Positions 34,606 to 63,200 of a DNA stretch of 64,000 bases are shown in pieces; position 1 is the stretch's first letter, and every line of letters begins with the position of its first letter. Origin of the DNA: Sandaracinaceae bacterium (GTDB taxonomy: Bacteria > Myxococcota_A > Polyangia > Polyangiales > Sandaracinaceae); NCBI GenBank assembly GCA_040218145.1, contig JAVJQK010000070.1, positions 124,001-188,000 of the forward strand. Reading direction: 5' to 3'. The position numbers and the translations under genes were made by a program. The notes below the pieces were generated by a model. The model was not told the DNA's origin. It did no database searches and saw only the letters and a program-made list of their open reading frames with translations.

Positions 34606-34667
34606 CAAGTTTGGGACACCAGGCCTCACGGGACCTGGTCGGCACTATCTGCGGACATTGGAGAGGT

Positions 34668-35855
<1,188 letters not shown>

Positions 35856-35882: not shown

Positions 35883-35913
35883 AAGCGCCCAGGTCCACCG
35901 GACCTGGGCGCTT
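35883..35913. terminator. Bidirectional hairpin terminator ending the NRPS-side transcript
   Basis: A perfect 14-bp stem (AAGCGCCCAGGTCC / GGACCTGGGCGCTT) with a 3-base loop, followed by TTCATT. It lies between the convergent cytochrome gene (ending 35855) and the FHA gene (ending 35931) and so can stop both, including the long leftward NRPS transcript. Confidence 0.9.
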
Positions 35914-35930: not shown

Positions 35931-36458
35931 TCAATCGACCTCGGGTACCATCTTCGAGATGATGTCGTGAATCCGGCGCGTGTCGTAGAAGCGGAGCGCA
36001 CGCGAGCCCAGCTTCACCTCGTCCTTGTGCTGGAGCTCCACCTCCTCTCCAGGGTTCACGAACGCCCCGTTGACCTGGGTGCCGTTGCTCGAGCCCGTGT
36101 CGGAGATGTACACGCCGCCGCGCTTGTCCGTGCGAACCCGCGCGTGCGTCTTCGAGATGCTGTCGTGCGGAATGCAGACGTCGTTCTTGGAGCTCCGACC
36201 GATCGTGATGCCTCGGCCAAAGAGGCTTTGGCGCGTCTGGCGGATCACGAAGGCCTCGTGGCCCCCGAGATCCAGCGGCGCTCGGAGGCTCGGCATGCTG
36301 CCGATCACCGTCGCCACGGTGGTGGACGCATCCTCTGCAGGGCTCGCGTCCGGCGCAGGCCCTGCAAGTAGGTGGCCGCCGACCTCCTCGAAGAACGCCT
36401 CGGGCGTGCATCTCTGGGCGACGGGGATCAGCTCGGCGATTCGCTTCGTGGATGACAT
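35931..36458 (-). CDS. FHA domain protein
   Basis: ATG 36458 gives 175 residues. After an N-terminal helical part and a low-complexity segment, the FHA fold occupies about residues 70-165: F-G-R-G-I-T-I-G-R-S-S-K-N-D-V-C-I, then S-I-S-K-T-H-A-R-V, then D-T-G-S-S-N-G-T-Q-V-N-G, with all key phosphothreonine-binding residues (G-R, S...H, N-G) present. FHA domains bind phosphothreonine peptides. It is probably a cytoplasmic adaptor of Ser/Thr-kinase signalling. It lies 16 bp after the kynurenine monooxygenase-like gene and is the last gene before the terminator. No kinase is in the window. Its presence with an FHA activator two genes away suggests phospho-regulated control of the cluster. Confidence 0.88.
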   Translation of the reverse strand: MSSTKRIAELIPVAQRCTPEAFFEEVGGHLLAGPAPDASPAEDASTTVATVIGSMPSLRAPLDLGGHEAFVIRQTRQSLFGRGITIGRSSKNDVCIPHDSISKTHARVRTDKRGGVYISDTGSSNGTQVNGAFVNPGEEVELQHKDEVKLGSRALRFYDTRRIHDIISKMVPEVD

Positions 36459-36474
36459 GTAGGAGTCCTCGTCC

Positions 36475-37833
36475 TCATTCCGTGTGCACTGAGTCCGCGC
36501 GGTTGGAGTGGCGCAGCGCTTGACGAACGGCCTCTTCCATCGAGCACTCCGCGAGCCGACGCATGACGTCCCGCACGAGCGCTTCGAGATCACTCTCGCG
36601 TCGGAGCGCCTCCGTGTATCGCATGCAGGTGAAGGAGACGTTGTGATAGAGCGGCGCCTTGCTCGGATCCTGCTTCTGCAGCTCGAGCGCGATGGCCGCC
36701 GCGAGCTGGTCATTCGGGTCGGCCACCGCGCGGTTGAGCACGTCGAAGTGAGCGATCGAGAGGTCGGCGATGGCGTCCGCCTCTGGCCTCCGGTCGGCCT
36801 CATAGCGCGACAGGGCCTCCTCCCAGTCCTCTCCCGAGTCGCGAAGGACCGCCCTGAGCGCGATCGCGTCCTCGAAGCTCGAGTTGCATCCCTGACCATA
36901 CGAAGGGAAAATAGCATGACACGCGTCGCCGATGAGGAGGACACGGCCCGCGAGCGCCCAGGGCGAGCAGCGGATCGTGATCATCGTGCCGTTGGGCCGC
37001 TCGAAGTACTCTTCGAGCATCGGCGCCGCGTCGGTCGCGACGTCGGGGAACTGCTCCTCGAACAGGCGGGCGAGCTCGGCGGGGCTCGTCATGGCGGCGT
37101 GGGAGACGGGGCCCTCGCGCGGGATCTGGAGCGAGAGCGTCATGGACCCGTCGAGGTTCGGGAACCCGATCAGCATGTAGCCGCCTCGCGGCCAGATGTG
37201 CACGGCGTGCCGGTTGTCCGCCCAGTCCGCGTCGGCTGACGGCGTCACGATGAACTCCGCGTACTCGAGCCGTGAATAGCGCTGACTGAAATTGAAGAAT
37301 CGCAACCTATGCTGCATCCGATTGCGAATCGTCGAGTAGGCGCCGTCGGCTGCGACGAGCAGCTTCGCGGTCCGCTCCTCCGGCTCGTGACCCGCGCGGC
37401 GGATTCGGACCGACGGCGTCTCGAGATCCACGTCCTGACAGCTCGCGCGGAACACGAACTTGGCCCCCTTCGACTCCGCGACGTCGACCAGGATGGCTGT
37501 CAGCTCGTGCCTCCGGATCGCGTAGATGGCCTCTTCCTGATGACCGTAGGGCGCGAAGTCCCGGTGGCCATCCGCGTAGTGGATGACGCGACCGTAGAGC
37601 GGAACGGCGAGCTGTAGGACGCGCTCCTCCGCGCCGATCGCTCGGAGCGCGGCGAGTCCGCGGGCCGCCATCGTGAGGTTGATGGATCGTCCCGACTGGG
37701 CGTCCTCTTCCCGAGGGTCACGTCGCTTGTCGATGACCTCGACGTCGAAACCGTCCTCGGCGAGGAGGGCCGCGAGCATGGACCCCGCGGGCCCGGCGCC
37801 CACGATCAAGATCGGCTCGGATGTTTCAGTCAT
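36475..37833 (-). CDS. Kynurenine 3-monooxygenase-like FAD enzyme
   Basis: ATG 37833, with GAGGAG ten bases upstream, gives 452 residues, the usual length of kynurenine 3-monooxygenase. FAD site I-V-G-A-G-P-A-G-S-M at residues about 10-19; the signature S-G-R-S-I-N-L-T-M-A-A-R-G; A-P-Y-G and R-R-H-E-L in the middle; and G-D-A-C-H-A-I-F-P-S-Y-G-Q-G-C-N-S-S-F-E-D, matching the family block G-D-A-A-H-x-x-x-P-x-x-G-Q-G-x-N. The family hydroxylates the aromatic ring of kynurenine using NADPH and oxygen. In NRPS clusters such enzymes supply 3-hydroxykynurenine or 3-hydroxyanthranilate units. No tryptophan dioxygenase or kynureninase is in the window, so the true substrate is open. The gap to the regulator upstream is 7 bp. 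Confidence 0.85.
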   Translation of the reverse strand: MTETSEPILIVGAGPAGSMLAALLAEDGFDVEVIDKRRDPREEDAQSGRSINLTMAARGLAALRAIGAEERVLQLAVPLYGRVIHYADGHRDFAPYGHQEEAIYAIRRHELTAILVDVAESKGAKFVFRASCQDVDLETPSVRIRRAGHEPEERTAKLLVAADGAYSTIRNRMQHRLRFFNFSQRYSRLEYAEFIVTPSADADWADNRHAVHIWPRGGYMLIGFPNLDGSMTLSLQIPREGPVSHAAMTSPAELARLFEEQFPDVATDAAPMLEEYFERPNGTMITIRCSPWALAGRVLLIGDACHAIFPSYGQGCNSSFEDAIALRAVLRDSGEDWEEALSRYEADRRPEADAIADLSIAHFDVLNRAVADPNDQLAAAIALELQKQDPSKAPLYHNVSFTCMRYTEALRRESDLEALVRDVMRRLAECSMEEAVRQALRHSNRADSVHTE

Positions 37834-37840
37834 TGGCCTA

Positions 37841-39565
37841 CTACTCCTCGTCACCCAGACCATACGAAGACCACTTGCTCATGAAGGTGCGCAAGGGCAT
37901 GTTGAGCCGCTTGGCCGCGGCGGTCTTGTTGCCGTCCGACTCCTCCATCGCGCGCATCATGAGCGAGGCCTCGAAGCGCCGAACACGATCTCTGAACGGC
38001 ACGTTCAGGTTGGTCTTGGCGCTCTGCTCCTCGACGAAGTGGGCCGGCTGAACGCTCGGCGGCAGCTCGCTGACCTCCACTCGTTCACCGCGCGACATGA
38101 CCACGGCGCGCTCGATGGCGTTTCGGAGCTCGCGAACGTTCCCGGGCCAGTCGTAGGTCTCGAGCGCGAGGACCGTCTCGGGGCTGAGCGCGGAGACGGA
38201 CCTCCCGTGCGCGCGGCTCGCGCGCTCCATGAACTCCTCCGCGAGGGGAACGATCTCGCCGCGCCGTGCGCGCAAGGGCGGCACGGCCACCGTGAACGTG
38301 TTGATGCGGAACATCAGGTCGAGCCGGAAGGTGCCAGCGTCCGTCATCTTTCGCAGATCCCGATGCGTCGCGGCCAGGATCCGCACGTCGACGCTCACCT
38401 CACGCGTCCCACCGACGCGGACCAGAGTCCCCGTCTCGATCGCTCGCAGCAGGGCCGCCTGGGCTGCGAGGCTCAGCTCACCGACCTCATCCAGAAAGAG
38501 CGTCCCGCCGTTCGCGCGCTCGAACAGGCCTTCGTGAGCGCGATCGGCGCCCGTGAACGCGCCGCGCTCGTGCCCGAAAAGCGTGCTCTCCACGAGAGTG
38601 GGCGCGATGGCCCCGCAGTTGACCTTCACGAGCGGGCCGTCAGCACGCCGACTCCGCTGATGAATGAACTCGGCGATGAGCTCTTTTCCGGATCCCGTCT
38701 CTCCCTGGATCAGCGTGGTCGCGTCGCTGCGAGCGATACGCTCGGCCAGCTCGTACACCTCGCGCATCTCCGGTGTGCGGACGACCGCGCCGTCCTGGGG
38801 AGCGACGCTCGCAGCCGAGGGGGAGCCCGCGCGCCTCGCCTCGAGTCGCCTCGCCAGCTCGTCGAGGAGCTCGTCGCCGCGCGCGCACGGGCCCGGGAAC
38901 GGGACGGTCGCGTGGATGACCCTGACCCCCTTTGCAGGCGCCGCGTCGTTCATCGCGCGCGCGAGCCGCGCGCCGTCTTGCTCGCTCACGCCCGGCATCA
39001 AGACGATCAGCGACTCCGTCCCGAACGACGCGATGATGTCCTCGTCGCGCAGCCTCTTCTCGATGCTCGGCAGCCAGACGCTCAGGTGGCGTTCGTGGCC
39101 CGTCGCCTCGAAGAGCGCCAGCGTCAGCTCGCGCCCCGTCTCGCGCGCCTCCGCGAGCTCGGCCTCGATGACGGGCTCGATGTCGTCGTAGGCCACGACC
39201 TGCGAAGCGAAGCGCTCCTGCCCACCTCGCACGATGGCGACGACGTCCCCGATCTCGATCCGGTCTCCCAGGCGGAGCTGGGTTCGCTCGACCTCGCGCA
39301 TGTTCACGAAGGTCCCGTTGCGCGACTCGCAGTCCTCGATCCACAGCGCAGCCCCCTTCCAGCGGATCACGGCGTGGCGACGCGAGACCGAGGGGTCGTG
39401 CAGCGGGATGTCTGCCTCGGCGGCCCGACCGAGGACGATGTCGCCGCCCGGGACCAGGGGAACTCGCCAGGTGCACTCCGGCAGAAACACCTGCAGCGAG
39501 GCGTCTCCCACCGTCGGTGGTCCACCCATCGGCCCACCCGTCGTCAGCGTCGATTCGTCAGGCAC
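37841..39565 (-). CDS. Sigma-54 activator with FHA and degenerate GGDEF-like domain
   Basis: The 574 residues hold an FHA domain (about 25-115: I-V-L-G-R-A-A-E-A-D-I, S-V-S-R-R-H-A-V-I, S-R-N-G-T-F-V-N) and a middle region (about 130-240) that follows the GGDEF fold but reads S-F-G-T-E-S in place of G-G-D-E-F, so no cyclase activity is expected. A complete AAA+ activator core follows (G-E-T-G-S-G-K-E, the sigma-54 contact loop G-A-F-T-G-A, F-L-D-E-V-G-E-L), then a Fis-type helix-turn-helix (about 530-570). It would open sigma-54 promoters in response to a phosphothreonine signal. It sits 19 bp after the flavin monooxygenase and 7 bp before the kynurenine monooxygenase-like gene, so it is embedded in the biosynthetic transcript. 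Confidence 0.93.
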   Translation of the reverse strand: MPDESTLTTGGPMGGPPTVGDASLQVFLPECTWRVPLVPGGDIVLGRAAEADIPLHDPSVSRRHAVIRWKGAALWIEDCESRNGTFVNMREVERTQLRLGDRIEIGDVVAIVRGGQERFASQVVAYDDIEPVIEAELAEARETGRELTLALFEATGHERHLSVWLPSIEKRLRDEDIIASFGTESLIVLMPGVSEQDGARLARAMNDAAPAKGVRVIHATVPFPGPCARGDELLDELARRLEARRAGSPSAASVAPQDGAVVRTPEMREVYELAERIARSDATTLIQGETGSGKELIAEFIHQRSRRADGPLVKVNCGAIAPTLVESTLFGHERGAFTGADRAHEGLFERANGGTLFLDEVGELSLAAQAALLRAIETGTLVRVGGTREVSVDVRILAATHRDLRKMTDAGTFRLDLMFRINTFTVAVPPLRARRGEIVPLAEEFMERASRAHGRSVSALSPETVLALETYDWPGNVRELRNAIERAVVMSRGERVEVSELPPSVQPAHFVEEQSAKTNLNVPFRDRVRRFEASLMMRAMEESDGNKTAAAKRLNMPLRTFMSKWSSYGLGDEE

Positions 39566-39584
39566 TCTTCTCAGTGTAGGCCGG

Positions 39585-40667
39585 TCAAGGTGTGGCGATG
39601 GAGCGGCGAGCGAGGGACTCCATCATTTGCCTGGCTTCCGCCGTGGCGCGCTCGACCGCCTGCGCGTCTCCGGCCTCGTAGTCGCGAAGTACGCGGGCGT
39701 GCCAGTGGTGCCGTGAGAGCGCACGTCGCTGGCGATGGAGCACGTCGGTGCGCCTCTGCGCCTCGAATTCGGAGAGGCCAGCCCCCACGTCGGAGGCGTC
39801 CGCGATCACCCCGGCCAGCGTGATGCCGTCCTCCAAGGCGAGGAGCGTGCCGAAACCTCCGGCGTAGTTGGCGGTGTGAGCCGCGTCACCGATCAGCACG
39901 ATGTGATCGCGGCTCCACCGTGTGAGGGAGAGGTTCTGAAAGCGACTCCAGCGGAGCGTCCCGCCCGGCAGCAGCCCCACCCCGTCGAGGTCCGGCGCGA
40001 AGATCGCTTCGAGCGCCGAGAGCGTCTGCGCCTGGTCCATCTCCGCGAAGCCGCGCCGGGCATGGGTCTCCGCCGTGCATTCCACGATGAAGGTGCTCAG
40101 CGCGGGCGCGTATGGGTAGACGAACGACAGGAAGAGGTCTCCCTCGTGTTCCCGGAAGATGGTCTCCAGTCCGTCGAAGCAACGAGGAGCGGCGAGCCAG
40201 GTGTGGTAGGTCGAGGCCTCGCTGACTTCGACCTCTCGCGCGTCGGCGACGAGCCCTCGGAGTCGACTGTGCACGCCGTCGGCGGCGACGACGACGTCCC
40301 ACTCGCTGCTGTCGAAGTCCTCCGGGCCTCGGACGTCGGTCTCGAACTCGACGATGACGCCCAGCCGTCGACTCTCCCGCTGAAGCCACCTCACGAAGGT
40401 GGTGCGCTCGATGGTCAAGAGATCGATGTCGTGCTGGAGATACCGGTCGCCGCGCCACTGGATGTAGGACGTGTCGACCGACCAGCGCGCGTCGTCGTAG
40501 CCGAGCGCGTCCAGCATGGCCGAGGGCATCGTGACGCCGAAGCCGATCTCGGCGGCCTCGGGGCGGCGCTCTCGCACGACGATCTTCCACGAGGGTGCGC
40601 GCCGCTTCAGCGTCAGCGCGAAGCTCAACCCGGCCGGGCCGCCGCCGATGACGAGCGCCGAGCTCAC
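39585..40667 (-). CDS. FAD-dependent aromatic monooxygenase (VioD/anthraniloyl-CoA monooxygenase-like)
   Basis: GTG 40667 overlaps the sulfotransferase stop as GTGA, giving 360 residues. FAD site V-I-G-G-G-P-A-G-L-S-F-A, then R-R-P-E-A-A-E-I-G-F-G-V-T-M-P and I-E-R-T-T-F-V-R-W-L. The latter two resemble VioD and the monooxygenase part of anthraniloyl- or salicylyl-CoA hydroxylases (where G-W-G-V is usual). The second FAD motif is L-I-G-D-A-A-H-T-A-N. These class A flavoenzymes add a hydroxyl to indole or phenyl rings with NAD(P)H and oxygen. It is translated after the NRPS and sulfotransferase, so it likely makes the phenolic or indolic OH that is then sulfated. The substrate could be a carrier-bound aromatic residue or the released peptide. 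An open extension to 41396 is antisense to the sulfotransferase. Confidence 0.83.
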   Translation of the reverse strand: MSSALVIGGGPAGLSFALTLKRRAPSWKIVVRERRPEAAEIGFGVTMPSAMLDALGYDDARWSVDTSYIQWRGDRYLQHDIDLLTIERTTFVRWLQRESRRLGVIVEFETDVRGPEDFDSSEWDVVVAADGVHSRLRGLVADAREVEVSEASTYHTWLAAPRCFDGLETIFREHEGDLFLSFVYPYAPALSTFIVECTAETHARRGFAEMDQAQTLSALEAIFAPDLDGVGLLPGGTLRWSRFQNLSLTRWSRDHIVLIGDAAHTANYAGGFGTLLALEDGITLAGVIADASDVGAGLSEFEAQRRTDVLHRQRRALSRHHWHARVLRDYEAGDAQAVERATAEARQMMESLARRSIATP

Positions 40668-41326
40668 TCGCTCCCCTCGATGTGCTCGTTGAACTGCTTG
40701 CGCGTGTTCTTCCTGGGAAAAGGCTCGTCGGGGACCGCCACACCGAGGAACGCGCAGAGGGGCTCCCAGCCCTCCGAGACCTCGAAGTGCAGGAGTCGCT
40801 CGGGAGCGATCGCCTCCTTGACGGCCCGCGTGTGCGCTTCGAAGCAGCGCCGAACCAGGTCGGGGTCCTCGTGCGGCCGCTCGTCGAAGGGCGCGCCCAG
40901 CGTCTCCTCGATGATGATGCGGCGCGAGAGCCGGATGAGCGCTCGACTCTCCTCGGCCGTCCAGCCAGGGCGCTCGTCCCCGAACTCCTCGAGCGGACGG
41001 TTCATGAAGCGGTAGATGGTCTGCGTCGCGCTCTCGAACCAGCGTTCGGGGTCGCGCGTGGTCAGCACGACTTTCGACTCGGGGAAGGCTTCGGCGATCT
41101 CCCGATAGAAGTGCGAGGCCGGCCAGTCGATGGCGGCGCCCCATCCCTCGAGCAGCTTCGCCCAGTCCACCGGCTTCCCCGCGAGCGCGTCGAACCAGAC
41201 CGGTACCTCGTGGGGCTTCACCTCTGCCCAGTGATAGCAGCGACCGCAGCCCAGCTTCTCGAGCGCGACCTTGAGGGAGCTGGTGCCGGTTCGCCCCCAG
41301 CCCGCGCCTATGATTCGAAGCGTCAC
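40664..41326 (-). CDS. PAPS-type sulfotransferase family protein (in NRPS operon)
   Basis: GTG 41326 overlaps the NRPS stop as GTGA and is preceded by AGGACGG. The 220-residue product has the phosphosulfate loop G-A-G-W-G-R-T-G-T-S-S-L (about residues 7-18) and the 3'-phosphate motif L-T-T-R-D-P-E-R-W-F-E-S with Arg and Ser eight apart. It is closely similar along its length to the protein at 33796-34452. It is expected to transfer sulfate from PAPS to a hydroxyl, for example a phenol made by the neighbouring monooxygenase or the Ser predicted in the peptide. Coupling on both sides (NRPS stop before, monooxygenase start after) shows that it belongs to the biosynthetic operon. Confidence 0.88.
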   Translation of the reverse strand: MTLRIIGAGWGRTGTSSLKVALEKLGCGRCYHWAEVKPHEVPVWFDALAGKPVDWAKLLEGWGAAIDWPASHFYREIAEAFPESKVVLTTRDPERWFESATQTIYRFMNRPLEEFGDERPGWTAEESRALIRLSRRIIIEETLGAPFDERPHEDPDLVRRCFEAHTRAVKEAIAPERLLHFEVSEGWEPLCAFLGVAVPDEPFPRKNTRKQFNEHIEGSE

Positions 41327-56300: not shown

Positions 56301-59300
56301 GTCGGACGACTCCGTCGGCGTCCTCGACATAGCGCGCGCGGAGCATCTCGTGGTGCTCCACGAGCGTCTCGAGCGATTCGCGGAGGGTCGACTCGTCGAC
56401 GCGCCGTTCGAGCTGCATGCGCAGGAGCTGCTGAAAGCGGCTCGGCCGAGGGTTCTCGAGCTCGAAGAACCACCGCTGGATCGGCGTCAGGGGGACGTCC
56501 CCCGTCGCACCGGCGTAGGCCAGCCCGACGACGCCCTCGTCACCCTCCGAAGCCCGGCTGGCGAGCGCCCTGACCACCGGCGCCTCGAAGATGTCTTGCA
56601 CCGACACCCGGAGGCCCGCGCGTTTGATCCGCCACACCACCTGCATGGCGATGATGGAGTCGCCGCCGAGCGCGAAGAAGTCGTCCTCGGGGCCCACCTC
56701 GGTCAGCCCGAGCGCCTCGGCGAAGGCGGTGGCCACCCGAGCCTCGCGTGGATCGGACGGTCGCTCGGCCCGCGCGGCGCGCACCGGCGCCTTTGGCGTG
56801 GGGAGGCTCTTCTTGTCGACTTTGCCGAACTGGGTCCGGGGCAGCACGTCCATCGAGACGTGCTGATTCGGGATCATGTGCGCGGGGAGCTGCTCCGCCA
56901 GGTGCGCGCGGAGGTCGCTCCACTCGAGGGCCCCGTTGGGGACCACGTAGACCACCAGCTGCTTCACGCCGCGACCGTCGGGCGCGATGTGGGCAGCGGC
57001 CTCGTGGACCCCTTCGTGGCGGTGACAGGCGTCCTCGATCTCACCCAGCTCGACGCGGCGTCCGCGCAACTTGACCTGCTGATCGTCACGCCCTACGAAC
57101 TCGAGTTGCTCATCGCCGCGCCAGCGGACGAGATCTCCGGTCCGGTACATGCGGCCACCCGGGTCGGCGGCGTGCGGGTCGGGGACGAATTTCTCGGCGG
57201 TCCTGGCGGGAGCGCCGACGTAGCCACGAGACACCCCCGCGCCGCCGAGGACGAGCTCCCCGACGACGCCGAAGGGGGCGACCTCGAGCGCGTCGTCGAG
57301 CACGTAGGATCTCCCGCCGTCGACCGAACGTCCGACCGGGATCGTCTCGTCCGCGCGGTCCGGGTCCACGACCGCGTGGAGCGCCGTGATCGAGCACTCG
57401 GTCGGGCCGTATTGATTGAACAGCGTGAAGGGCGCGCGGTGAAACCCCTCCCAGCGCATCTGCTCCCCGCCGACCGACAGGAGTCGTGTGGCCTCGAAGC
57501 ACTCTGGACGCTGCTCGAGCATCTGGCGAAGCAACGCAGGGATGACGTGGGCCGACGTGATCCCTTCGGACCTGAACCACTCGGCGAGGCGGGACGCGTC
57601 GGCGCGCACGTCGTCGTCGGCGATGTGAAGGGTCGCCCCCGACGCGAGGACCTCCCAGGTCTCCACCACGGCCGCGTCGAAGCTCGTGTCGACGAGGTGC
57701 GACCCATGGTCGCCGGGACCGAGCCCGCTGACCCTCAGCCTCCACTCGATGGTGTTGGCGAAGCCGCCATGTCGGACCGCGACCCCCTTGGGACGACCGG
57801 TCGAGCCCGAGGTGAAAATAACGTAAGCAACATTGTCGACGGAGAGCTCGACGCTCGGGCGCTTCGGCTGGCCCCCTGCCTCCAGCTCGCCGAAGCGTAG
57901 GACGGTCGCTGCGAGGTCGGTCGCGCGCGGCTCGTCCGTGACGATGATGCGCGCGTCCGCGTCCGCGAGCATCGACGCGACGCGCTCGGATGGCTGGCCG
58001 CCGTCGATGGGGAGATAGGACGCGCCCGCTCGCATGATGCCGAGCGCGGTGACGACCATGTCGACCCGACGGTCGGACCAGATGGCCACGCACGACTCGA
58101 GGGAGACGCCCCGATCGCGCAGCCCCGCGGCCACCGCGGCCGAGCGTCGCTCGAGCTCCGCGTAAGAAACGACCTCGTCGCCGTGCCGGAGGGCGACCGC
58201 GTCGGGCCTCGACGCGGCGTGGGCGCAGACGAGGTCGGGAACCAAGCTCGGAGTGGGCGACGGCGCCGCGCCGACGCCGAGGTCGACCAGCGCGCGCGCG
58301 TCGGACGACGACATCGGGCCCACGAGACCGAGCGGGGTGTCCGGCCCAGCCACCAGCTGTTCGATCACCGTCATCCAGCCGCGGGGCACCCTCTGGGCGA
58401 TGGCGTCGGGGACGCGGCCGCGGTCGTACTGGAGGACGAAGGCGAGCGCCTCTCCATCGCGCAGCGCCATGAGTCCGAGCGGGAAGCCAGGGCTTCGGAA
58501 AGACTTCTTCCGCTCCACGACGAGGTCCCGCCCGAAGTCCGAGCCGTCCTTCACGAACGGCACGCTCTGGTGCAGCACCGTGCTCTCGTAGAGGGGCTCA
58601 CCGGGCGGGACCGCGCTCTGACGGCGAATGTCGGGCAGCGACGCGTACTGGTGCTCTCGAACGGCGAGCACCTCGTCGTGCACCCGACGCAGCCAGTCGA
58701 CGACGCCGATCCGATCGGGCACGCGGATCCGGAGCGGAGGCGTCCCCACGAACATGCCGACCATCTCATTGGCGCCCGACAGACCTTCCGGACGTCCGGA
58801 CATGGTCGCTCCGACGACCACGTCGCGCTGCCCCGCGTATCGCGCCATGAGCAGCGCCCAGCCTCCGACGGTGACCGCCGCTTCGCTGACTCGCTCGGCG
58901 CGACAGAACTCGGCGATCCGGCGCGCGAGGGGCTCCGGCACGTCTTCGTGGAGCTCAGCGAAACGCGGCTCACCGTCCGGGACGCTGCGAGTGACGTCGA
59001 CGCCCAGGGGGGTCGGCCCGCTCACGTCCCGCAGCCGCTCGCGCCAGAACGCGAGGTCGCGCTCGGGGTCGCGAGCCTTCAGCCACGCGATGTACTTCGA
59101 GTAGGGCTGTGGTGCCGCCAGCGACGCTGGAGCCGCGCCACCCGCGTCGTACGTGGCGATGGCTTCATGGAGCAGCTGGGTGTAGCCCCAGCCGTCCAGC
59201 ATGGTGTGATGGAAGCCGACGACCAGCCACCACGCGTCCCGGTCGACACGCAGCAAGGAGAAGTCGATGGGCGGCGGCCTGCGCGGGTCGATGCCCTCGA

Positions 59301-59640
59301 GGCGCCGCTCGCGAAGGAACGCGTCGACGCGCCGCTCGCGGTCGTCGGGGGACAGCGCGAGCAGATCGATCTCGGCCCAGGGGAGCTCGACATCGCGCAG
59401 GACGATCTGCAGCGGAGAGTCGACCTTCTCCCACTTGAGCGCCGAACGCAGGACCTCGTGCCGAGCGACGACCGCCTCGAAGGCCGACCGCAGTCGCCCC
59501 GCGTCCAGCGGCCCGCGGAGCAAGTACGCGTACTGCTCCAGGTGACGCGGCTCCCCGCCCGCCCTGAGGCTCTCGAAGAGCAGCCCCGCCTGACTGGGGC
59601 TGGCGGGATAGACATCTACGACTCGAGATCGGTCGATCAC
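41323..59640 (-). CDS. Five-module nonribosomal peptide synthetase with terminal thioesterase
   Basis: GTG 59640 lies 4 bp after the starter-protein stop; 6,105 residues. Module 1: C (HH 144-145...DG), A1 (about 467-945), PCP (Ser995), epimerase (about 1045-1480). Module 2: C (HH about 1648), condensation-domain remnant (about 1945-2140), A2 (2163-2630), PCP (Ser2680). Module 3: C, A3 (3188-3670), PCP (Ser3722). Module 4: C, A4 (4232-4710), PCP (Ser4761). Module 5: C, A5 (5263-5747), PCP (Ser5794), then thioesterase with Ser5920 in A-H-S-A-G and His near 6071. Specificity residues aligned by eye to GrsA: A1 DAVHSGQIT (unknown), A2 DAQTVAAVC (Phe-like, aromatic), A3 DVWHVSLVD (Ser), A4 DAWFLGHVV (Leu-like), A5 DVTTVGSVA (unknown; its A4 region reads A-D-V-G-N-T). 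With the starter this predicts a hexapeptide with a D residue at position 2, released by the thioesterase as an acid or ring. No MbtH-like protein or phosphopantetheinyl transferase is in the window. Confidence 0.95.
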   Translation of the reverse strand: MIDRSRVVDVYPASPSQAGLLFESLRAGGEPRHLEQYAYLLRGPLDAGRLRSAFEAVVARHEVLRSALKWEKVDSPLQIVLRDVELPWAEIDLLALSPDDRERRVDAFLRERRLEGIDPRRPPPIDFSLLRVDRDAWWLVVGFHHTMLDGWGYTQLLHEAIATYDAGGAAPASLAAPQPYSKYIAWLKARDPERDLAFWRERLRDVSGPTPLGVDVTRSVPDGEPRFAELHEDVPEPLARRIAEFCRAERVSEAAVTVGGWALLMARYAGQRDVVVGATMSGRPEGLSGANEMVGMFVGTPPLRIRVPDRIGVVDWLRRVHDEVLAVREHQYASLPDIRRQSAVPPGEPLYESTVLHQSVPFVKDGSDFGRDLVVERKKSFRSPGFPLGLMALRDGEALAFVLQYDRGRVPDAIAQRVPRGWMTVIEQLVAGPDTPLGLVGPMSSSDARALVDLGVGAAPSPTPSLVPDLVCAHAASRPDAVALRHGDEVVSYAELERRSAAVAAGLRDRGVSLESCVAIWSDRRVDMVVTALGIMRAGASYLPIDGGQPSERVASMLADADARIIVTDEPRATDLAATVLRFGELEAGGQPKRPSVELSVDNVAYVIFTSGSTGRPKGVAVRHGGFANTIEWRLRVSGLGPGDHGSHLVDTSFDAAVVETWEVLASGATLHIADDDVRADASRLAEWFRSEGITSAHVIPALLRQMLEQRPECFEATRLLSVGGEQMRWEGFHRAPFTLFNQYGPTECSITALHAVVDPDRADETIPVGRSVDGGRSYVLDDALEVAPFGVVGELVLGGAGVSRGYVGAPARTAEKFVPDPHAADPGGRMYRTGDLVRWRGDEQLEFVGRDDQQVKLRGRRVELGEIEDACHRHEGVHEAAAHIAPDGRGVKQLVVYVVPNGALEWSDLRAHLAEQLPAHMIPNQHVSMDVLPRTQFGKVDKKSLPTPKAPVRAARAERPSDPREARVATAFAEALGLTEVGPEDDFFALGGDSIIAMQVVWRIKRAGLRVSVQDIFEAPVVRALASRASEGDEGVVGLAYAGATGDVPLTPIQRWFFELENPRPSRFQQLLRMQLERRVDESTLRESLETLVEHHEMLRARYVEDADGVVRQTVEPFEPSLARLRVVRSEVDERSLAEQLEASLSIDVGPVFGALFDAHRGVLWLAAHHLVIDAFSWRVLVEDLEAAVTASVEARRAALPRTSSFAQVAAALGELASRPDIRAEAPHWDLMSRGAVPAVPVDETGSADEDAEPEEGRFRDARSVEVVFPAEDSRRLTEAVDASGLVTIEEALIAALAIGYRRWSGRSAVRLELEGHGRDVELEGVETSRTVGWLTVAHPVRLELPEEDDPALWLTDVRAQLRRVPNGGVGYGLNRHLAERADDAPYPRPQIAFNFLGRATDIVRPGFGRASLNPFGLPVAGDNVRPAMLLVVAYLTDAGLEWVIDYPARVLRAGRVEALAGAIVDALRAVARELEVAQGRRARPLDFPLVELDDATLESLRPGGEIEDVLPLTPLQEGMLFHSRMAAEADASPLYREQFVHAIRGRVDAEALCRALQHLHDRHAALRTEFHWEGLEAPVQLVRTAVPVELPCVDLRDEADPEARFEQLRAAEHAEPLRLERAPVSRFTIALLGDGDARLIQTAHHMMLDGWSGGILTRELSALYRAELDGQSLDLPPVRPFGDYVRWLARQDAAPARRHFSEALGDVTRPTPLSLEPTRPVSAASADHRRIRRALQPDLARRLHAAARREGLTLATFLAAAWSLTLSWRSGDDRPIFGVTMSGRPDGLDGAQGMMGLFINTLPLRVEVTPPARVRDWLRDVQSSLLALRRHEHLPLVEAERCSGMGAGPIFQSLLVVENHPTGAGDAGPAEMAPVHNESRVNYPLVIAAHFGAALSLEALFHPQRVDGDACEQVLGELERVLDQLVAASASDSVADVSPLGFLGGPALRAELRGRARALDLGVSLDLPPEDAGARPRPVAVPEVDARLALAATLRIAAIHATGTDAVVGVVRAGAWIPVRARHVRRATGRELLDVADESLSGGDARPIPWRWLASRTGERARSIVVAATEADRDVVRALGPRLAVSIDERARSAELDFGDGVTDATAARVAARFEACVRGIVERPDVPTDRAPSLPDEERALIAEWSTPTEAQPESCCAHELFEAAVARTPDAIAVARGTVHRRYRELAADVWRVAHALRARGVGPERRVAILLPRDVDYVVCALAVLEAGGAYVPIDPDYPAERVRYILADCGADLVLTHLEGGDRRFLDPSTLGLDEPARGGPPAALVRPSNAAYVIYTSGTTGRPKGVVLTHATAVALVRSMSHELGLGPDSRLLQFAALGFDATVQEIFPTLAAGARLVLPERAEQLSGERLAELIASQGVTVATFPPSVQATLPADDRLASLATLVSAGEACSVAQLRRLGAGRRFINAYGPTENTVCATLHVCAPDDTQAPIGRPLANVRARTVAAMGETLGVGDAGEIALGGAQLARGYVRQPRLTAERFVPDPAGQPGDRMYLTGDLGRWLTSGALAYLGRIDRQVKLRGFRIEPAEIEAVLESSPRVQQAVVVVRGEGDARRLVAYVVADGALDLDRERARASEVLPGYMMPSDIVRLDALPLTPNGKVDHARLPSPSRRGGEAPGTPTEIMLAEAWVSLLGVDAVQRDDDFFRLGGNSLLVTRLVSWLRKRADVELSLTVAFEARTLREMSLRIDEASAAALPPIERAPREGPLPASHAQARLWLLDRILPDSAAYHVPVALRLRGTPDPRKVQRAIDIVVSRHEALRTSLVEIDGRPFQRILEGVRVPLEVSRLEGVGAEAREAALAALVAQDAAAPFDLEEAPLMRARLVLLSPDESAFVCVMHHAISDGWSVDVLLRELDAAYSADAAGMPTLPVQYADYAVWQRAWLEGGEMERQLAYWRRHLRDAPATLDIPTDSPRRTVKGVRGGSVGLSLSPAVGRRVSELASERGVTPFMVLLTAWQVLLSRYARTEDVVVGSPIAGRRVSELEPLIGFFANTLVLRANFSGAPSFQEALERARATLLEAYGNQDVPFERLVSELSPRRDTSVTPLFQSMFSLDSSVGSERSLFGGEASALRGEIAYEKFDVSLQLARTPDSYTGALSYDADLFAASSMRRLAAQFGAFLETLLDSPDRPLPELRLLPETEAEELRAWNDTARSYGAPTTLPALLRRRVDAQPLAIALKSEVEGELTFASFEARVNGVAAALRARGARPGAVVGVCLERSFDLLVAVHGVVAAGCAYVPLDPTLPAERLSYMASDCGAAVVLVHESTEGRLPDGQLTRVRVDELGDGARAPLSCLPRDAAYMIYTSGSTGRPKGATNTHEGIVNRLHWMQEAFPIGPGDVLVHKTPYSFDVSVWELFWPLHAGATLVVAEPEGHKDPVYLARLFREAGVSTAHFVPSMLESFLFHLEDEGGAPPSLRRIVCSGEALSRELVERTHSLAPKVAVENLYGPTEAAVDVSHWRCVPGDPSARVPIGAPIANTRLRVVSGAQLTQPIGVPGELCIGGVQVSRGYHARPALTADRFRPDDEGAPGDRLYRTGDLCRWRSDGQLDYLGRLDHQVKLRGFRIELGEVEVAMESVPGVRRAVAAVRGSGLEQRLVGYLLGDASAETVRAALENELPEYMVPAALVRLTELPLTPSGKVDRKTLPEPEWESAVYEPPSTPTEVELAEVWTALLDVARVGRNDDFFALGGHSLLATRMIARARERFGVEVELRSVFASPRLSALAKVVEGAARRALPTLTRVETAGVVPASFAQERLWFLQRLDPDSAAYNIPEAFTLVGELDRGALLRALDQLFERHEVLRTRFVEREGAPLQSVESEVRAAYSELAAEGATLEARREDARRQAEGFARRPFDLARAPLARALLIEIAPAEHVFVLVIHHIAGDGWSNGVVSRDLTELYRAEIEEREPLLPVLPVQYRDYAAWQRSWLLGDALDAQLAYWRERLDGAPPVLELPLDRPRPAIKRSPADAIRFSMPPTTSAAVHRLARQLGGSPFTVLLSAWAVLLARYSRTDDFVIGTPVAGRRAAELEELVGFFVNTLVLRMKVGEAFDFESLVRSTTDTLLEAQAHQDVPFEKLVAELGVEREASTPPLFQVMFSLHRDEGRTGELLGVVAERLEVAPAEAKFDLSLMLVQKGDSLIGRLEYDAALFEPQTAQRHVTHFLRVLDRVLEAPREELARRSFLDEAEHARLTTSWANGPELPCDPRTVPALVEARAGESPDAVALVSGDVRTTYRALIDRVDRVAGGLASRGVGPGRRVAVCLPPGQDFVCAALAVMRSGAAYVSIDPSYPDDRIAYMVEDSDAALVVADPPARARLTAVAAPIVELDALSAAAGSPRRPTARDEAYVIYTSGTTGRPKGVAVAHEQLSSLCAWHRDVYPVGPGVTVTQLAGVGFDASVWEIWPALAAGATVSIVLGDARRDPSALADHLAEAGVEIAFMATPLAEAMLSSEASTPPRLKTLLTGGDRLHRVDVSALPFELVNHYGPTENTVVSTYGLVRTGVEPTLGRPLPGTSALVLDGALEPTLEGVPGELCVGGRQVARGYVGRPSLTADRFRPDPFGDPGERIYRTGDLVRWTQDAELAFLGRIDRQVKLRGQRVELGEIESVLESEPRVRAAVVEVRRNARGVERLVAYVVAENGDLGGLERLAAERLPGHMVPNQFVSLSALPLTPNGKIDRAALPEPAWAATADGEAPRTESERWLAALWQDLLGIDVDLKREDDFFALGGHSLVATRVASRVREELGVELSLRSVFEGPTLAAMASRIDEAQRRDLPPITPRDASSREVPTSFAQERLWFLQQLRPESASYNIPLVLRLRGRLALTPLSRALNAIVERHEILRTRIVSRDGAPVQVVDPPSPLALALERVDGESSARRRVGAIVGRPFDLAAESPIRAHLLEGPQEERWLVIVLHHVAGDGWSSGVVLSELAALYRAELEGREAEVAPLEIQYADYALWQRRWLVGDELDRQLSYWRAQLAGAPPSLELPIDHPRPHLKGERGGVVRLRATGSAARRARELAREGGATSFMVLLAAWQLLLARYARTDDVCVGTPIAGRRVAELEPLVGFFVNTLVLRGRVRPELTFRQLIAQVRETTLDAYAHQDVPFERLVAALAPSRDTRHTPLFQVMFSLQSGAPATPGMPGLDAQLVSPDEVTCKFDLSLTLVDDGSALAGMLAFDASLFEPQSVEGMARRFEDLLDRVMSDPDRPLGQVPLLARDQTAPRHAAPPPIDARPVDALIGRWALDTPDALALCAGDETLSYAELWRGAGAVAGALRERGVGHEDRVALLATRTIDTVVAMVGVMRAGAAYVALDPEHPQERLAHQLTDSGAVLLLGGAHELDALTLSAPIPTATFADCRDGSQDLDLRRHATGLLYVTYTSGSTGTPKGVAVEHAGMRRYLTGLGSKLALAPGKSHAVLTTLSADVGNTAVYGALTSGGVLHLLTPEVAKSPRRLASYLERRSVDFLKTVPPHMEALLSTAEGVLPREAVVLGGETFPWSLANSIGDRCEAFNSYGPSETTVAVAMERVSRPGGASVPIGAPIGGARLLVVDPLTDEVPSGVPGELWIAGPSVSRGYLGRPRLTAERFVPDPSGVSPGARAYRTGDHVRSLPDGRLEFLGRADGQVKIRGYRVELGEVEAQVRAIRGVRSAVVLARRDDERGLHLVAYVVGSATDDRRLAADLGARLPEHMIPSAWVHLDSLPLTENGKIDRRALPAPSWDTGPTEPPVTATEVALARIWSRILGVSSVGRHADFFALGGHSLLAVKLVAELEDGLARRVDLLDVFERRTVARMAELLDADAGSRADSTRVVTLSRGPAPTVFALHSLAGTVGHFVELADRLEGRATMLGLAHSRMSDEGSLETLAQRYAAVVRARSEGDAVHLLAHSAGSFFALAAARVLSAEGCDVRLFLLDPPPLTGPVGALTDEIVRLKWARELLAMASGERPDALADGASRETVFAALASAGIGSTDSERALLERQLDAYAAALRLSREGSSTAAPGVRAMTLFASEGNGLGGTDAAAAGWRLALPTLEVATLEASHFGMLRGPDAGRVVESIERWLEASRETRKDGR

Positions 59641-59644
59641 GGCG

Positions 59645-61492
59645 TCACTCGTCGTCGAATAGCGCGTCGAGACCTGCCTCGTCCAAGCCGTCCACGAGCG
59701 AGAACCGTTCCGGCGCCTCCTGGCTGGACGCGGGCTCGGCCGGGCTCGCGGCGTCCACGGATTGCGCGAGCTCGCGGATCTCGAGCTCGAACACCTTGCG
59801 GAAGTCGAGCGCCAACCCGGCCTGCTCCGCCTTCCACATGAGGTTCATCACCCGAACCGAGTCGCCTCCGAGGCCGATGAAGTCGTCGTCGGGGCCGACG
59901 GCGGACACGCCCAGGACCTCGGCGTAGAGCGCGCAGAGCAGCTGCTCGGTCGAGCTCGCGGGCGGCGCCGACGCGCGCTCGGGGGCTCGCTCTTGGCGCG
60001 GCGCGGGCAACCTCGCGACGTCGAGCTTGCCGGAGCTCTTTCGCGGGAGCTCCTCGAGCAAGACGATGTGCGTCGGTACCATATGTGCCGGGAGCACGTG
60101 CTCGAGCGCCGCGCGGAGCTTCGTCACGTCGATCTGGGCGGGAACGACATACGCGGCGAGCTGCTTCGAGTCGGGCTCTCCGACCGCCCTGACGGCAGCC
60201 TCCTCGACGTCGGCGACGGCCTCCAAGGCGGCCCGCACCTCGCCCAGCTCCACCCGGTGGCCGCGGATCTTGACCTGCTCGTCGGAGCGCCCCTCGAACA
60301 CGAGCTGACCATCGGCCAGCCTGCGCGCGAGGTCTCCGCTTCGATAGCCACGCAGCCCCACGGACGCGTCATCGGGGTCGGGTCGGAACCGGTCGGCCGT
60401 GAGCCCCGGTCTCCCCGCGTATCCGCGCGCCACGCCCTCTCCCGCGAGGAACATCTCGCCCGTCGGCTCCGAGGGCGCCAGGGCGTCGTCGACCAGCTGG
60501 ACCCGCATCCCGGAGACGGGGCGCCCCAGCGGAGGCATGCCGCTCCCCTCTGGATCGACGGGCGCGGCGAGCACGGTGACCGCACACTCGGTCGGACCGT
60601 AGGCGTTGAACAGGTCGAAGGGGACATCGCGGAAGCCATCCCACCGCATCGCCTCCCCCCCGCACACGAAGGTCTGCACCCCTGCGAGCCGGCCGGGGTC
60701 ACGCTCCACCAGCGGGCGAAGCAGCGCCGGGGTGACGTACGCGACCAGCACGCGCTCGGTCGCGATCCACTCGCCCAGCGCTCTGGGGTCCTGCTTGAGA
60801 GCTTCGTCGAACAGGACGAGCGTGGCGCCGGCGAGGAGGGGCTCCCAGAGCGCCTGGACCGAGGCGTCGAAGCTCCAACCGAGGAGGTTGGCGCAGCGCG
60901 ACTCCGGGGTGACCGAGAAGTACCTTCGGCTCCACTCCAGCGTGTTGAGGAGGCTGCGGTGCGCGACCCCGACGCCCTTGGGATGCCCCGTCGAGCCCGA
61001 GGTGTACACCTGGTAGGCGAGCTGCATGGGGGAGGCGACGCGGGGGAGAGGCGTCGACGCGACGGCGGCGCCCCCGAGGTGCCCCGTCGGGAGAACGGGG
61101 GTCGCTCCCCAGCTGCCGACCGGGACGCGACGCTCGTCGTCCGTGACGCAAAAGCGCGCGCCGGCGTCCGCCTGGATCCACCGAACGCGCTCGGGCGGCT
61201 GGCGCAGGTCGAGCGGCACGTAGACCCCGCCCGCCCGGACGATCCCGAGCATGGCGACGACGAACTCGAGGGGCGACTCGAGCCAGATGGTGACCCGCTC
61301 CTCCCGCCGCAGCCCGTGCTGAATCAGCGCGGACGCCAGCGCCTCGGACGCCCGATCCAGCTCACCGTACGAGAGGCTACGGTCGCCGTGCTTCAGCGCC
61401 TGCTTGGCTCGATCTCTCGCGGCGACCGCCGAGAACGCACGATCCAGCGTCTGCCCGATCGTGCTTCGGATCGGTTCGCTCACTTTCGACAT
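59645..61492 (-). CDS. NRPS starter protein: adenylation and carrier domains
   Basis: ATG 61492, with GGGAG six bases upstream, gives 615 residues: an A domain (about 20-520, with Y-T-S-G-S-T-G-H-P-K-G, Y-G-P-T-E-C, Y-R-S-G-D-L and a final G-K-L) and a carrier domain (F-I-G-L-G-G-D-S, about 560). There is no condensation domain, so it starts the chain. Specificity residues by eye are DAQYVGAVT; Asp at position 235 implies an alpha-amino acid, identity unknown. The segment G-G-E-A-M-R-W-D-G-F is shared, with small changes, with A1 of the large synthetase, suggesting duplication of a common ancestor. The acidic end (G-L-D-E-A-G-L-D-A-L-F-D-D-E) looks like a docking segment for the condensation domain at the start of the next protein, 4 bp downstream. 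Confidence 0.93.
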   Translation of the reverse strand: MSKVSEPIRSTIGQTLDRAFSAVAARDRAKQALKHGDRSLSYGELDRASEALASALIQHGLRREERVTIWLESPLEFVVAMLGIVRAGGVYVPLDLRQPPERVRWIQADAGARFCVTDDERRVPVGSWGATPVLPTGHLGGAAVASTPLPRVASPMQLAYQVYTSGSTGHPKGVGVAHRSLLNTLEWSRRYFSVTPESRCANLLGWSFDASVQALWEPLLAGATLVLFDEALKQDPRALGEWIATERVLVAYVTPALLRPLVERDPGRLAGVQTFVCGGEAMRWDGFRDVPFDLFNAYGPTECAVTVLAAPVDPEGSGMPPLGRPVSGMRVQLVDDALAPSEPTGEMFLAGEGVARGYAGRPGLTADRFRPDPDDASVGLRGYRSGDLARRLADGQLVFEGRSDEQVKIRGHRVELGEVRAALEAVADVEEAAVRAVGEPDSKQLAAYVVPAQIDVTKLRAALEHVLPAHMVPTHIVLLEELPRKSSGKLDVARLPAPRQERAPERASAPPASSTEQLLCALYAEVLGVSAVGPDDDFIGLGGDSVRVMNLMWKAEQAGLALDFRKVFELEIRELAQSVDAASPAEPASSQEAPERFSLVDGLDEAGLDALFDDE

Positions 61493-61505
61493 GATCTCCC
61501 GGCGC

Positions 61506-63101
61506 TCACTCGGCCGGGTAGTCCGCCATCCGGGGCGGCATCGTCTCGAGCTTCGGCGGCTCCTGCATGACCATCTGGCTCTGGAAGAACTCGAAGAGCG
61601 GCCGCACGTGCAGCTCCTCGTCCTCCCACTCTCCGAAGAGGTTCTCGAGGAGATGGATGCGCCGGACCGCCTTGCCACGCGAGTAGCGCCTCACGACAGG
61701 GTGCAGGAAGAAGCTCTGATCGGCCGTCTCCGGGTCAGGGTCACGCGGCACGTTGAAGGGGTCGTCGTGACAGTGCCCGAACTCGAGGCTGATCGTGTAG
61801 TAGTGCTTGCTTCGCCCGATGTCCGACTCGTGGACGTAGTGGAACGGGAGCTCCTCGTAGTACCGGGCTTCGCCGTCTTCTCCCAGCACGATCGCGTCGC
61901 AGAGGAAGCCGAACTGCTGCCACAGCGCGGACGACTTGCGAATCCTTCGGAGCGCCGCGCGGGTGAACTCCACCGCGTCTGGTCGGACGACCTCGTACGG
62001 TAGCGGTCGACCCTCGACCTTGTTGCGCAGGATGTGGAAGAGGGTCTTGGCGTTGTACCGGAAGCCGTGAATGAAGGCCGAGTTGGTCTTCTTGTAGTCA
62101 CGAGACTGGGTGATCACGCCCGCGTAGAACAGATTCGGGACGTTGACCGACTCCCACTCGCTGGTCATCTCGGGGAAGCGATCCGCATGGACGCGCGCCG
62201 GCCTGCATCCCTCGGCGAAGATGGACGGGTCGAACTTGAACCCGGTGCAGACGATCACCCGATCGTACTCGATGTCCTCCACCTCTCCGAGCGCGTGCTC
62301 GTAGCTGAAGGACACGCGGAGCGTCCCGGACTCGGTCTTCTCGATCTTGCGCACCTGCGCGTCGAGGACCGCGTTCTGGGTCTTCAACTGGTAGGTGTCC
62401 AGGAAATTGTTGTTGACAGCCCGCAGGTGCCCGGGGAAGTGCGTCTTCCAGGCGAACTTCACGGGGGTCGGGCTGGCGACGTGGAGGAGCGAGGTGGTCG
62501 GGATGAGCGCGTCAGCCGTCTCGAAGCCGGAGTTCCCCTTGCCGAGCACGAGCACGCGCTGACCGACGAAGTCCTGGGGGTCGACGCTCACGTCGACGTA
62601 GTTCTCGCTGTGCTCGATGCCCGTGATGCGGGGGACATACGGACGACTCACGCCGGTCGCGAGGATCACCGCGCGAGCGTGGTACTTCTGCCCGTTCTTC
62701 GCTTCGACGGTGAACGTCCCGTCGTCGTTCCGCGACGTGCTGACCACCTCGGTGTTCACGTCGATGTTGGGAACGAAACGCCGCTGGAACTCCTCGAGGT
62801 ACTCGACAAGTGCGTCGGCGCTGGGGAAGTACTCCTCGGTGTAGTGCTTGAGGAGGAGCGAGTGGTCGTCGGTGAGGAGCGAGTTCCAGTCGAACCGAAG
62901 GTTGCGCTCGGGATCCGAGTATCCGGTGTGGACCTTGTTGACGGAGATCAGCTTGCGATGCCGAGGGTACTTGCGGAAGAAGTCACCCGCGGTAGGGCCC
63001 TTCTCGAGGACTCGGTAGCTGACGCCGGCTCGCTGCAAGTAGTAGCCCAGCTGAAGACCCGCCGGACCGGCACCGATGACCAGGTAGTCCACTTCATTCA
63101 T
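61506..63101 (-). CDS. FOXRED2-like FAD-dependent oxidoreductase
   Basis: ATG 63101 is chosen because AGAGGAAG lies eight bases upstream; a GTG at 63110 would sit on the ribosome binding site. The 531 residues start with FAD motif V-I-G-A-G-P-A-G-L-Q-L-G-Y, then the striking Y-P-R-H-R-K-L-I-S-V-N-K and L-R-F-D-W-N-S-L-L, which resemble eukaryotic FOXRED2/ERFAD. A second nucleotide site, V-L-G-K-G-N-S-G-F-E-T-A-D-A, follows near residue 190, then A-T-G and C-T-G-F blocks of flavin monooxygenases. It is soluble, without a signal peptide or ER signal. It is the first gene of the NRPS transcript, 13 bp before the starter protein, so it probably oxidises a precursor or the peptide; FOXRED2 chemistry itself is poorly defined. 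Confidence 0.85.
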   Translation of the reverse strand: MNEVDYLVIGAGPAGLQLGYYLQRAGVSYRVLEKGPTAGDFFRKYPRHRKLISVNKVHTGYSDPERNLRFDWNSLLTDDHSLLLKHYTEEYFPSADALVEYLEEFQRRFVPNIDVNTEVVSTSRNDDGTFTVEAKNGQKYHARAVILATGVSRPYVPRITGIEHSENYVDVSVDPQDFVGQRVLVLGKGNSGFETADALIPTTSLLHVASPTPVKFAWKTHFPGHLRAVNNNFLDTYQLKTQNAVLDAQVRKIEKTESGTLRVSFSYEHALGEVEDIEYDRVIVCTGFKFDPSIFAEGCRPARVHADRFPEMTSEWESVNVPNLFYAGVITQSRDYKKTNSAFIHGFRYNAKTLFHILRNKVEGRPLPYEVVRPDAVEFTRAALRRIRKSSALWQQFGFLCDAIVLGEDGEARYYEELPFHYVHESDIGRSKHYYTISLEFGHCHDDPFNVPRDPDPETADQSFFLHPVVRRYSRGKAVRRIHLLENLFGEWEDEELHVRPLFEFFQSQMVMQEPPKLETMPPRMADYPAE

Positions 63102-63141
63102 ACTGCCCACTTCCTCTCGTCCCTCGCAGACGCGAACACGA

Positions 63142-63171
63142 ATGTTACCGCCTGCATGTCTCTCTGTTCAA
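63142..63171 (-). promoter_or_regulatory. Candidate promoter of the NRPS operon
   Basis: Read leftward: TTGAAC (63171-63166), an 18-base spacer and TAACAT (63147-63142), each four of six matches to sigma-70 boxes. It is about 40 bp before the first start of the operon, in the only spacer that separates it from the upstream gene. A run of eight C residues lies just beyond the -35. No sigma-54 -24/-12 pair was seen here. Confidence 0.5.
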
Positions 63172-63200
63172 CCCCCCCCTGAGGTCACCGACCGCCGGAG

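Follow-up and report, generated by a model that had tools for sequence, protein, structure and literature searches.

Type I nonribosomal peptide synthetases (NRPSs), such as those of tyrocidine, surfactin, linear gramicidin and pyoverdine, follow a modular logic of condensation (C), adenylation (A) and peptidyl carrier protein (PCP) domains, in which an epimerization (E) domain is followed by a DCL-like C domain and a thioesterase (TE) stands at the C-terminus. The same logic is found in a row of eight minus-strand genes (63101..35931) within a 64,000-nucleotide stretch of DNA from a Sandaracinaceae bacterium (GenBank assembly GCA_040218145.1, contig JAVJQK010000070.1, positions 124,001 to 188,000), called the window here. 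Solved NRPS chains matched by the locus include LgrA, TycA/B, SrfA-C, McyB and PvdL. Unlike the systems named above, it starts from a free A-PCP protein without formylation, acylation or a C domain, and it carries a different tailoring set. As an orphan NRPS cluster with an ordinary type of machine, the locus is real and apparently functional, and its genes very probably serve to build a nonribosomal peptide of six residues and to oxidise it. A probability of roughly 0.7 is given to the reading that it is a complete biosynthetic operon making an oxidised hexapeptide by the pathway proposed below.

Known relatives exist also for the tailoring enzymes and the regulator. One flavin monooxygenase of the row has R84, Y98 and Y404 in common with the kynurenine 3-monooxygenase (KMO) PfKMO and differs from it at N369, F238 and L213. 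The other is related to the tryptophan/indole 5-hydroxylase VioD and to salicylyl-CoA 5-hydroxylase, yet it falls below both curated cut-offs and has just 360 amino acids. The sulfotransferase is a sequence relative of SgdX2; unlike SgdX2, it is coupled to an NRPS gene by a GTGA overlap. From myxobacteria, FHA-domain sigma-54 enhancer-binding proteins (EBPs) with partner Ser/Thr kinases are known, and the activator of the row has the same FHA domain, AAA+ domain with GAFTGA and Fis-type helix-turn-helix, with a kinase gene nearby. In contrast to those systems, its gene lies inside the biosynthetic row, FHA genes flank the locus on both sides, and no good -24/-12 site was seen ahead of the first gene. 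The eight genes, from first to last, are the following.

61506..63101, minus strand: flavoprotein, FAD/NADPH two-dinucleotide-binding-domain type, class-B-monooxygenase-like (Pfam Pyr_redox_3, 164 bits)
59645..61492, minus strand: free-standing A-PCP, module 1 (AMP-binding, 236.8 bits; AMP-binding_C; PP-binding; pocket by alignment)
41323..59640, minus strand: five-module NRPS, 6105 amino acids (Pfam and motif positions)
40664..41326, minus strand: Sulfotransfer_4 protein (PF17784, 201 bits)
39585..40667, minus strand: VioD-like flavin monooxygenase, 360 amino acids (VioD 3c4a, 141 bits; FAD_binding_3)
37841..39565, minus strand: FHA-sigma-54 EBP (FHA, Sigma54_activat, HTH_8)
36475..37833, minus strand: KMO-like flavin monooxygenase (PfKMO, 248 bits; FAD_binding_3)
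35931..36458, minus strand: FHA-only protein, 175 amino acids (FHA, 74.5 bits)

Recomputed from the gene coordinates, the successive spacings from the flavoprotein gene to the terminal FHA gene are 13, 4, -4, -4, 19, 7 and 16 bp, with GTGA overlaps coupling the NRPS, sulfotransferase and VioD-like genes. This agrees with an earlier note on this DNA, which had described eight co-directional genes with gaps of 4-19 bp or GTGA overlaps; the gene families it had named (A-PCP, NRPS, sulfotransferase, two monooxygenases, FHA/sigma-54 and FHA) are each matched by Pfam or NCBIfam profiles. Rfam and tRNA scans of the 64-kb window gave zero matches.

By Pfam, motif positions and comparison of the C and E domains, the domain order of the synthetase is C-A-PCP-E-C-A-PCP-C-A-PCP-C-A-PCP-C-A-PCP-TE, so that, counting the free A-PCP, there are six A domains and six carriers in all. 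Its C-A-PCP modules recur with their core motifs intact and end in a release domain, which places it among the type I NRPSs and bears out the A-PCP starter and five-module NRPS with TE proposed before. Its main parts are listed below; the limits of the A domains are approximate.

58219..59625, minus strand: C2 domain, grouped with C3 (DCL-like) by tree and identities
56761..58218, minus strand: A2, pocket DAVHLVQITK
55141..56547, minus strand: E domain, motif HHLVIDAFSW (TIGR01720, 66.4 bits on the piece, cut-off 74.2)
53713..55119, minus strand: C3 domain, DCL-like (Pfam and C-domain comparison)
53191..53808, minus strand: C3-A3 stretch, residues 1945-2150, its first residues overlapping the given end of C3
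51721..53193, minus strand: A3, pocket DAQTVAAVCK, aromatic-like by reference codes
48571..50046, minus strand: A4, pocket DVWHVSLVDK, predicted Ser
45451..46920, minus strand: A5, pocket DAWFLGHVVK, predicted Leu
42346..43818, minus strand: A6, pocket DVTKVGSVAK, predicted Asp/Asn-like
41359..42084, minus strand: TE domain (Pfam Thioesterase, 47 bits), HSAGS at residue 5919

The pocket positions follow the PheA numbering and were read after aligning the six A domains with one another; the final Lys is assumed. Asp235, whose retention is a mark of alpha-amino acid as against aryl acid activation, is kept in all six; therefore, alpha-amino acids rather than aryl acids would be expected. The pocket of A3 looks aromatic-like when set beside Phe and Tyr codes; the presumed Tyr code DASTVAAVCK was not found by word search of one open-access library, nor was 'TVAAVCK' beside 'Stachelhaus'. 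For the next three domains, the calls are made because their pockets are close to published codes, namely PvdJ-M1-Ser DVWHVSLI and SrfAB-M2-Asp DLTKVGHI (available text of PMC3207962) as well as DAWFLGNVVK for Leu and DLTKVGHVGK for Asp/Asn (available text of PMC12283262). Ser for A4 and Leu for A5 are thereby strongly predicted, Asp/Asn-like for A6 moderately so. The A1 pocket, DAQYVGAVTK, shares its last positions with DVSAIGCVTK, which is reported for Tyr, Phe and Trp domains in the same text (PMC12283262), and this weakly suggests an aromatic residue; the closest match to A1 besides itself is A2 from the same cluster (44%).

As to stereochemistry, the E domain after module 2 supports a D-configured residue 2. 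In the tree, C2 and C3, which are 32% identical, form a group of support 0.97 that excludes C4-C6. The best solved chains for C2 are McyB, PvdL, surfactin synthetases (SrfA-C), bacitracin synthase 3 and TycB, those for C4 Txo2, Txo1, 5u89 and a tyrocidine synthetase 3 domain. From the peptide X1 - D-X2 - aromatic - Ser - Leu-like - X6 of the earlier note, residues 2-5 are retained on the E domain and the pockets, the sixth becomes Asp/Asn-like, and the first is treated with more caution in view of the C2 grouping.

Between C3 and A3, about 200 residues remain that could be a shrunken C-lobe of a second C domain. No Pfam match was obtained within 53202-53820; the stretch is weakly C-domain-like (E 0.015-0.069) and ranks first among itself and 999 shuffles, and its single-sequence structure model (pLDDT 39.9) is uninformative. 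A proven degenerate C-lobe was dropped as a description, the profile score barely exceeding that of shuffled copies and the fold being uninformative.

Of the two hydroxylases, the KMO-like protein has PfKMO as its best solved match, over residues 2-422. In PfKMO, the substrate carboxylate is contacted by Arg84, Tyr98, Tyr404 and Asn369 (available text of PMC6376250). Since three of these four contacts are kept, a free amino acid would probably be accepted, and because the N369 contact is lost, the protein is named KMO-like, not KMO. On the ring side, it shows F238->Q, L213->V, L226->F and M373->L, while I224 is kept. At the other loci compared, position 369 is His in L168, L170 and L171, Thr in L057, and Asn in L104 and L169. 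Against the VioC profile NF053548 of NCBIfam, the protein reaches 184.7 bits, well below the cut-off of 760. At E<=1e-30 the gene is the sole match listed for its own genome, and such matches occur in 6 of the 183 genomes of the order, including both from this species. A tryptophan dioxygenase gene is present elsewhere in the host genome; kynurenine supply is therefore possible.

The VioD-like protein, for which VioD is the best solved match, scores 163.4 bits against NF053547 (cut-off 620) and 217 bits against the monooxygenase part of PRK08255 (salicylyl-CoA 5-hydroxylase), again below the curated cut-off. Matches at 1e-20 are common in the order (96/183 genomes); the non-orthologues listed are 30-40% identical and lie mostly in reading frames of at least about 750 amino acids, presumably the size of salicylyl-CoA 5-hydroxylase, and among the searched genomes of the order identity above 40% is confined to this species. 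The claim of a hydroxylated peptide is thus upheld as far as tailoring by FAD hydroxylases is concerned, with the kynurenine 3-monooxygenase label reduced to KMO-like and the VioD label below its family cut-off.

The flavoprotein, FOXRED2-like in the earlier note and assigned here by Pyr_redox_3 and its structural neighbours, has an AlphaFold model (pLDDT 87.2) with a C-terminal part of its own from about residue 365; it resembles YpdA (Z 27.1, root mean square deviation (rmsd) 3.0, 318 aligned) and the bacterial flavin monooxygenase 4a9w (Z 25.7, rmsd 3.0, 319 aligned) over residues 1-363. The comparison bears chiefly on the first 400 or so of its 531 residues, and this likeness in the modelled fold does not fix the reaction. 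Relatives are widespread, with at least 540 confirmed among 587 candidate stretches of the genome_contigs collection. At the loci of the best 80 (47-57% identical, fetched flanks only), NRPS modules of at least 190 bits flank the flavoprotein gene in 10 cases, a Sulfotransfer_4-type gene occurs in 7, most or all from related actinobacteria, and a clear KMO-like gene in 2 (L057, L104). A metagenome-assembled genome of Gemmatimonadota has a 57% relative directly behind an NRPS-TE. A word search of one open-access library found no paper linking FOXRED2 with a nonribosomal peptide, and none linking KMO, nonribosomal peptide and sulfotransferase. Another flavoprotein neighbourhood recurs among these loci (e.g. 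L095:7600-14051), in which the flavoprotein stands with an AMP-ligase, a P450 and, in L095, an FMN_dh protein; with the L095 genes as probes, the P450 was met in 44/80, the AMP-ligase (>=200 bits) in 30/80 and both in 29/80 loci. Tandem flavoprotein gene pairs were seen in L006 (G161, C29:20352-23607) and L010 (G102, C52:30276-33421).

The sulfotransferase far exceeds the gathering score of Sulfotransfer_4 (201 vs 22.8 bits) and has the motifs GRTGT at residue 11 and RDPERW at 91. In the activator, an FHA domain, Walker A GETGSGK at 288, GAFTGA at 335 and HTH_8 are combined, as is proper to a sigma-54 EBP.

A second genome of the species, assembled in 720 contigs and 84% complete, conserves most of the locus and carries window positions 24683-48727 at 99.64% and 52425-59636 at 99.43% identity; the row from the FHA gene into the NRPS keeps its layout on one contig. 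Over 4870 of 6106 codons of the NRPS, 45 synonymous stand against 19 non-synonymous differences (dN/dS about 0.16), so that the synthetase is under purifying selection. The VioD-like gene has 3 of each kind, the EBP 3 and 0, respectively, and the sulfotransferase, KMO-like and FHA genes show zero differences; none of the covered genes has an indel. With the VioD-like and A-PCP proteins as queries, no similar cluster was met in 183 genomes of the order or in 377 sampled genomes of the phylum, which partly overlap the former; these searches scored the best ~3-11 candidates per genome, with strict E-value limits for the VioD-like, A-PCP and KMO-like queries. None was met at the best 80 flavoprotein loci either. 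In these searches, all or part of the set of tailoring enzymes and regulators was seen in just two genomes, both of the same species, and the gene combination that the earlier note did not recognise was not encountered in any cluster among the genomes, loci and literature searched.

A cluster shared with other flavoprotein carriers of the order was considered and rejected. Their eight neighbourhoods (two on contigs <7 kb) hold no NRPS or A-PCP match of at least 250 bits, and at 1e-8 they also lack matches to the sulfotransferase and to the VioD-like and KMO-like proteins; EBP matches were found in G145 and G147 and an FHA match in G145. The same outcome was reached for other KMO-like genes of the order, where none of four neighbourhoods (one of 5.6 kb) has an NRPS match at 1e-6, two have EBP matches and one of these two FHA matches.

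In the pathway that we infer, including its substrates, tailoring order, regulation and single transcript, the free A-PCP would load residue 1 and pass it to the five-module synthetase. This would add residues 2-6, with epimerization of residue 2 to D, and the TE would free a hexapeptide whose residues run approximately aromatic? - D-X - aromatic - Ser - Leu - Asp/Asn. Hydroxylation of an aromatic amino acid or residue, most probably one derived from tryptophan or kynurenine, would fall to the KMO-like and VioD-like enzymes, and the flavoprotein would perform a further NADPH-dependent oxidation. The Sulfotransfer_4 enzyme would attach a sulfonate, as final or as leaving group, to a hydroxyl made or carried by the peptide. 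Expression would be governed by the in-row FHA-sigma-54 activator, perhaps after phosphorylation by the upstream Ser/Thr kinase.

Several explanations compete with this scheme. The same operon could use the sulfonate only as a leaving group, for dehydration or ring closure, and release an unsulfated product; this is a serious possibility, though held at less than even odds. It is favoured by the second-best solved homologue of the sulfotransferase, SgdX2 (8y9p, 147.6 bits), which is termed an 'activating sulfotransferase' of sungeidine biosynthesis in a title cited in PMC11677658, whereas the best one, 9kf1 (152 bits), is merely named a sulfotransferase family protein, and sequence cannot separate the two roles. 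It is unlikely, by comparison, that the tailoring genes act on a separate tryptophan- or kynurenine-type small molecule, so that two neighbouring functions would share one strand. Relatives of KMO and VioD often act on free small molecules; in Duganella, a flavoprotein relative has an IDO gene on one side and, on the other, a cupin gene and then a KMO-like gene, with GST genes also present and no NRPS match within the fetched stretch; and in the row itself the EBP gene separates the two hydroxylase genes, with weak -24/-12-like sites inside. Against such a division speak the GTGA overlaps that tie the NRPS, sulfotransferase and VioD-like genes, the KMO-like gene only 7 bp behind the EBP gene, and the FHA-to-NRPS layout kept on one contig of the second genome. 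Finally, the C3-A3 stretch, some 200 residues without a domain match, could be read as a damaged module in a decaying or silent cluster that makes no functional peptide. The core motifs are intact, the frame is open throughout, and the two genomes differ by no indel and mostly at synonymous positions; this reading is very improbable.

The reading of the row as one operon for an oxidised hexapeptide has to be held against a number of observations, which are gathered here. No strong NRPS match was found at 70 of the 80 flavoprotein loci, and a transporter or resistance gene was not identified among the eight genes. The pockets of modules 1 and 2 matched no published code in a literal-string word search of one open-access library, and since C2 groups with the DCL-like C3, its donor, residue 1, may be D-configured or otherwise unusual instead of an ordinary L-residue. 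The KMO-like protein carries N369->H, F238->Q and L213->V, and with these contacts altered its substrate need not be kynurenine. The earlier note had expected a sulfated product; the family assignment of the enzyme stands, and because its close solved homologue SgdX2 is an 'activating' sulfotransferase, sulfate on the final product is not assured. Neither the flavoprotein and A-PCP genes nor window positions 48728-52424 were seen in the 84% complete second assembly, where the contig ends at the place at which the flavoprotein and A-PCP would be expected, and so loss and poor assembly are indistinguishable.

The transcription signals belong to the same side of the balance. The candidate promoter formerly placed before the first gene was not recovered: zero sigma-70-type sites lie in 63050-63300, and the best -24/-12 match up to 300 bp upstream agrees at 6/12 positions (scoring was limited to sites having GG and GC). 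Inside the row, within upstream genes, there are three weak -24/-12-like sites (9/12), one 72 bp before the NRPS gene, one 287 bp before the EBP gene and one 100 bp before the FHA gene. In a test chosen post hoc, in which six 300-bp stretches were drawn at random, 0.8% of the draws equalled them. If real, these would be internal starts, leaving some room for the separate transcripts of the tailoring genes that had been named as contrary to a single operon. The terminator with a 14-bp stem described at the end of the row (hairpin at 35883-35913) has a real stem (z = -4.08; 1/200 shuffles folds equally well). Its T-rich tail, however, lies on the plus strand, where the convergent gene 34611-35855 ends, and it therefore fits that gene better than the operon.

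The product of this plus-strand gene is a di-haem cytochrome c peroxidase-like protein with a C-terminal run of 21 aspartates, for which just short weak matches in the family were found outside the species. Next to it, a long minus-strand frame adjoining the cluster (31315-34410) has di-haem oxidoreductase (DHOR) domains, its true start lying probably well inside. Two -24/-12-like sites score highest in the window, with 10 and 11 of 12 positions: 34590-34605 on the plus strand, some 60 bp ahead of where the di-haem-peroxidase-like gene probably starts, and 9152-9137 on the minus strand, some 40 bp ahead of the frame 8251-9099 on that strand; both are possible targets of a sigma-54 activator. 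Upstream of the row, the following genes are found.

63201-64043, minus strand: 280-amino acid protein, window part ending at 64000 and without a Pfam match
64040-65902, minus strand, beyond the window: Ser/Thr kinase with PEGA domain, overlapping the preceding gene by 4 bp
65999-66745, minus strand, beyond the window: further FHA protein, behind the kinase gene

Divergent from the kinase and FHA genes, an FHIPEP family gene (type III export apparatus) lies at 69207-71162. A local switch from kinase to FHA activator is plausible. Kinase adjacency was dropped as strong evidence: with at least 150 Ser/Thr kinase matches scored and 295 candidates in the host genome, a single kinase neighbour is weak evidence. 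Nor are the FHA and kinase neighbours special, because such genes likewise occur around the characterised miuraenamide cluster, as seen in the available text of PMC10051162. In a phospho-switch, the upstream kinase would phosphorylate a target that the EBP recognises through its FHA domain, and one or two FHA adaptors would tune the response. That the locus combines such a switch of its own with a dedicated, hydroxylated Trp- or kynurenine-type residue made by the KMO-like enzyme with its altered ring pocket and a sulfotransferase-driven ring closure new for a hexapeptide is distinctly unlikely.

Summarizing, the known kinds of biosynthetic system are unchanged by this locus. If the proposed operon is real, it would provide an orphan cluster amenable to study, its partial structure open to testing, in which three flavin oxidases and a sulfotransferase act on one peptide, and it would be a compact place to test local Ser/Thr kinase-FHA control of secondary metabolism in a kinase-rich bacterium.

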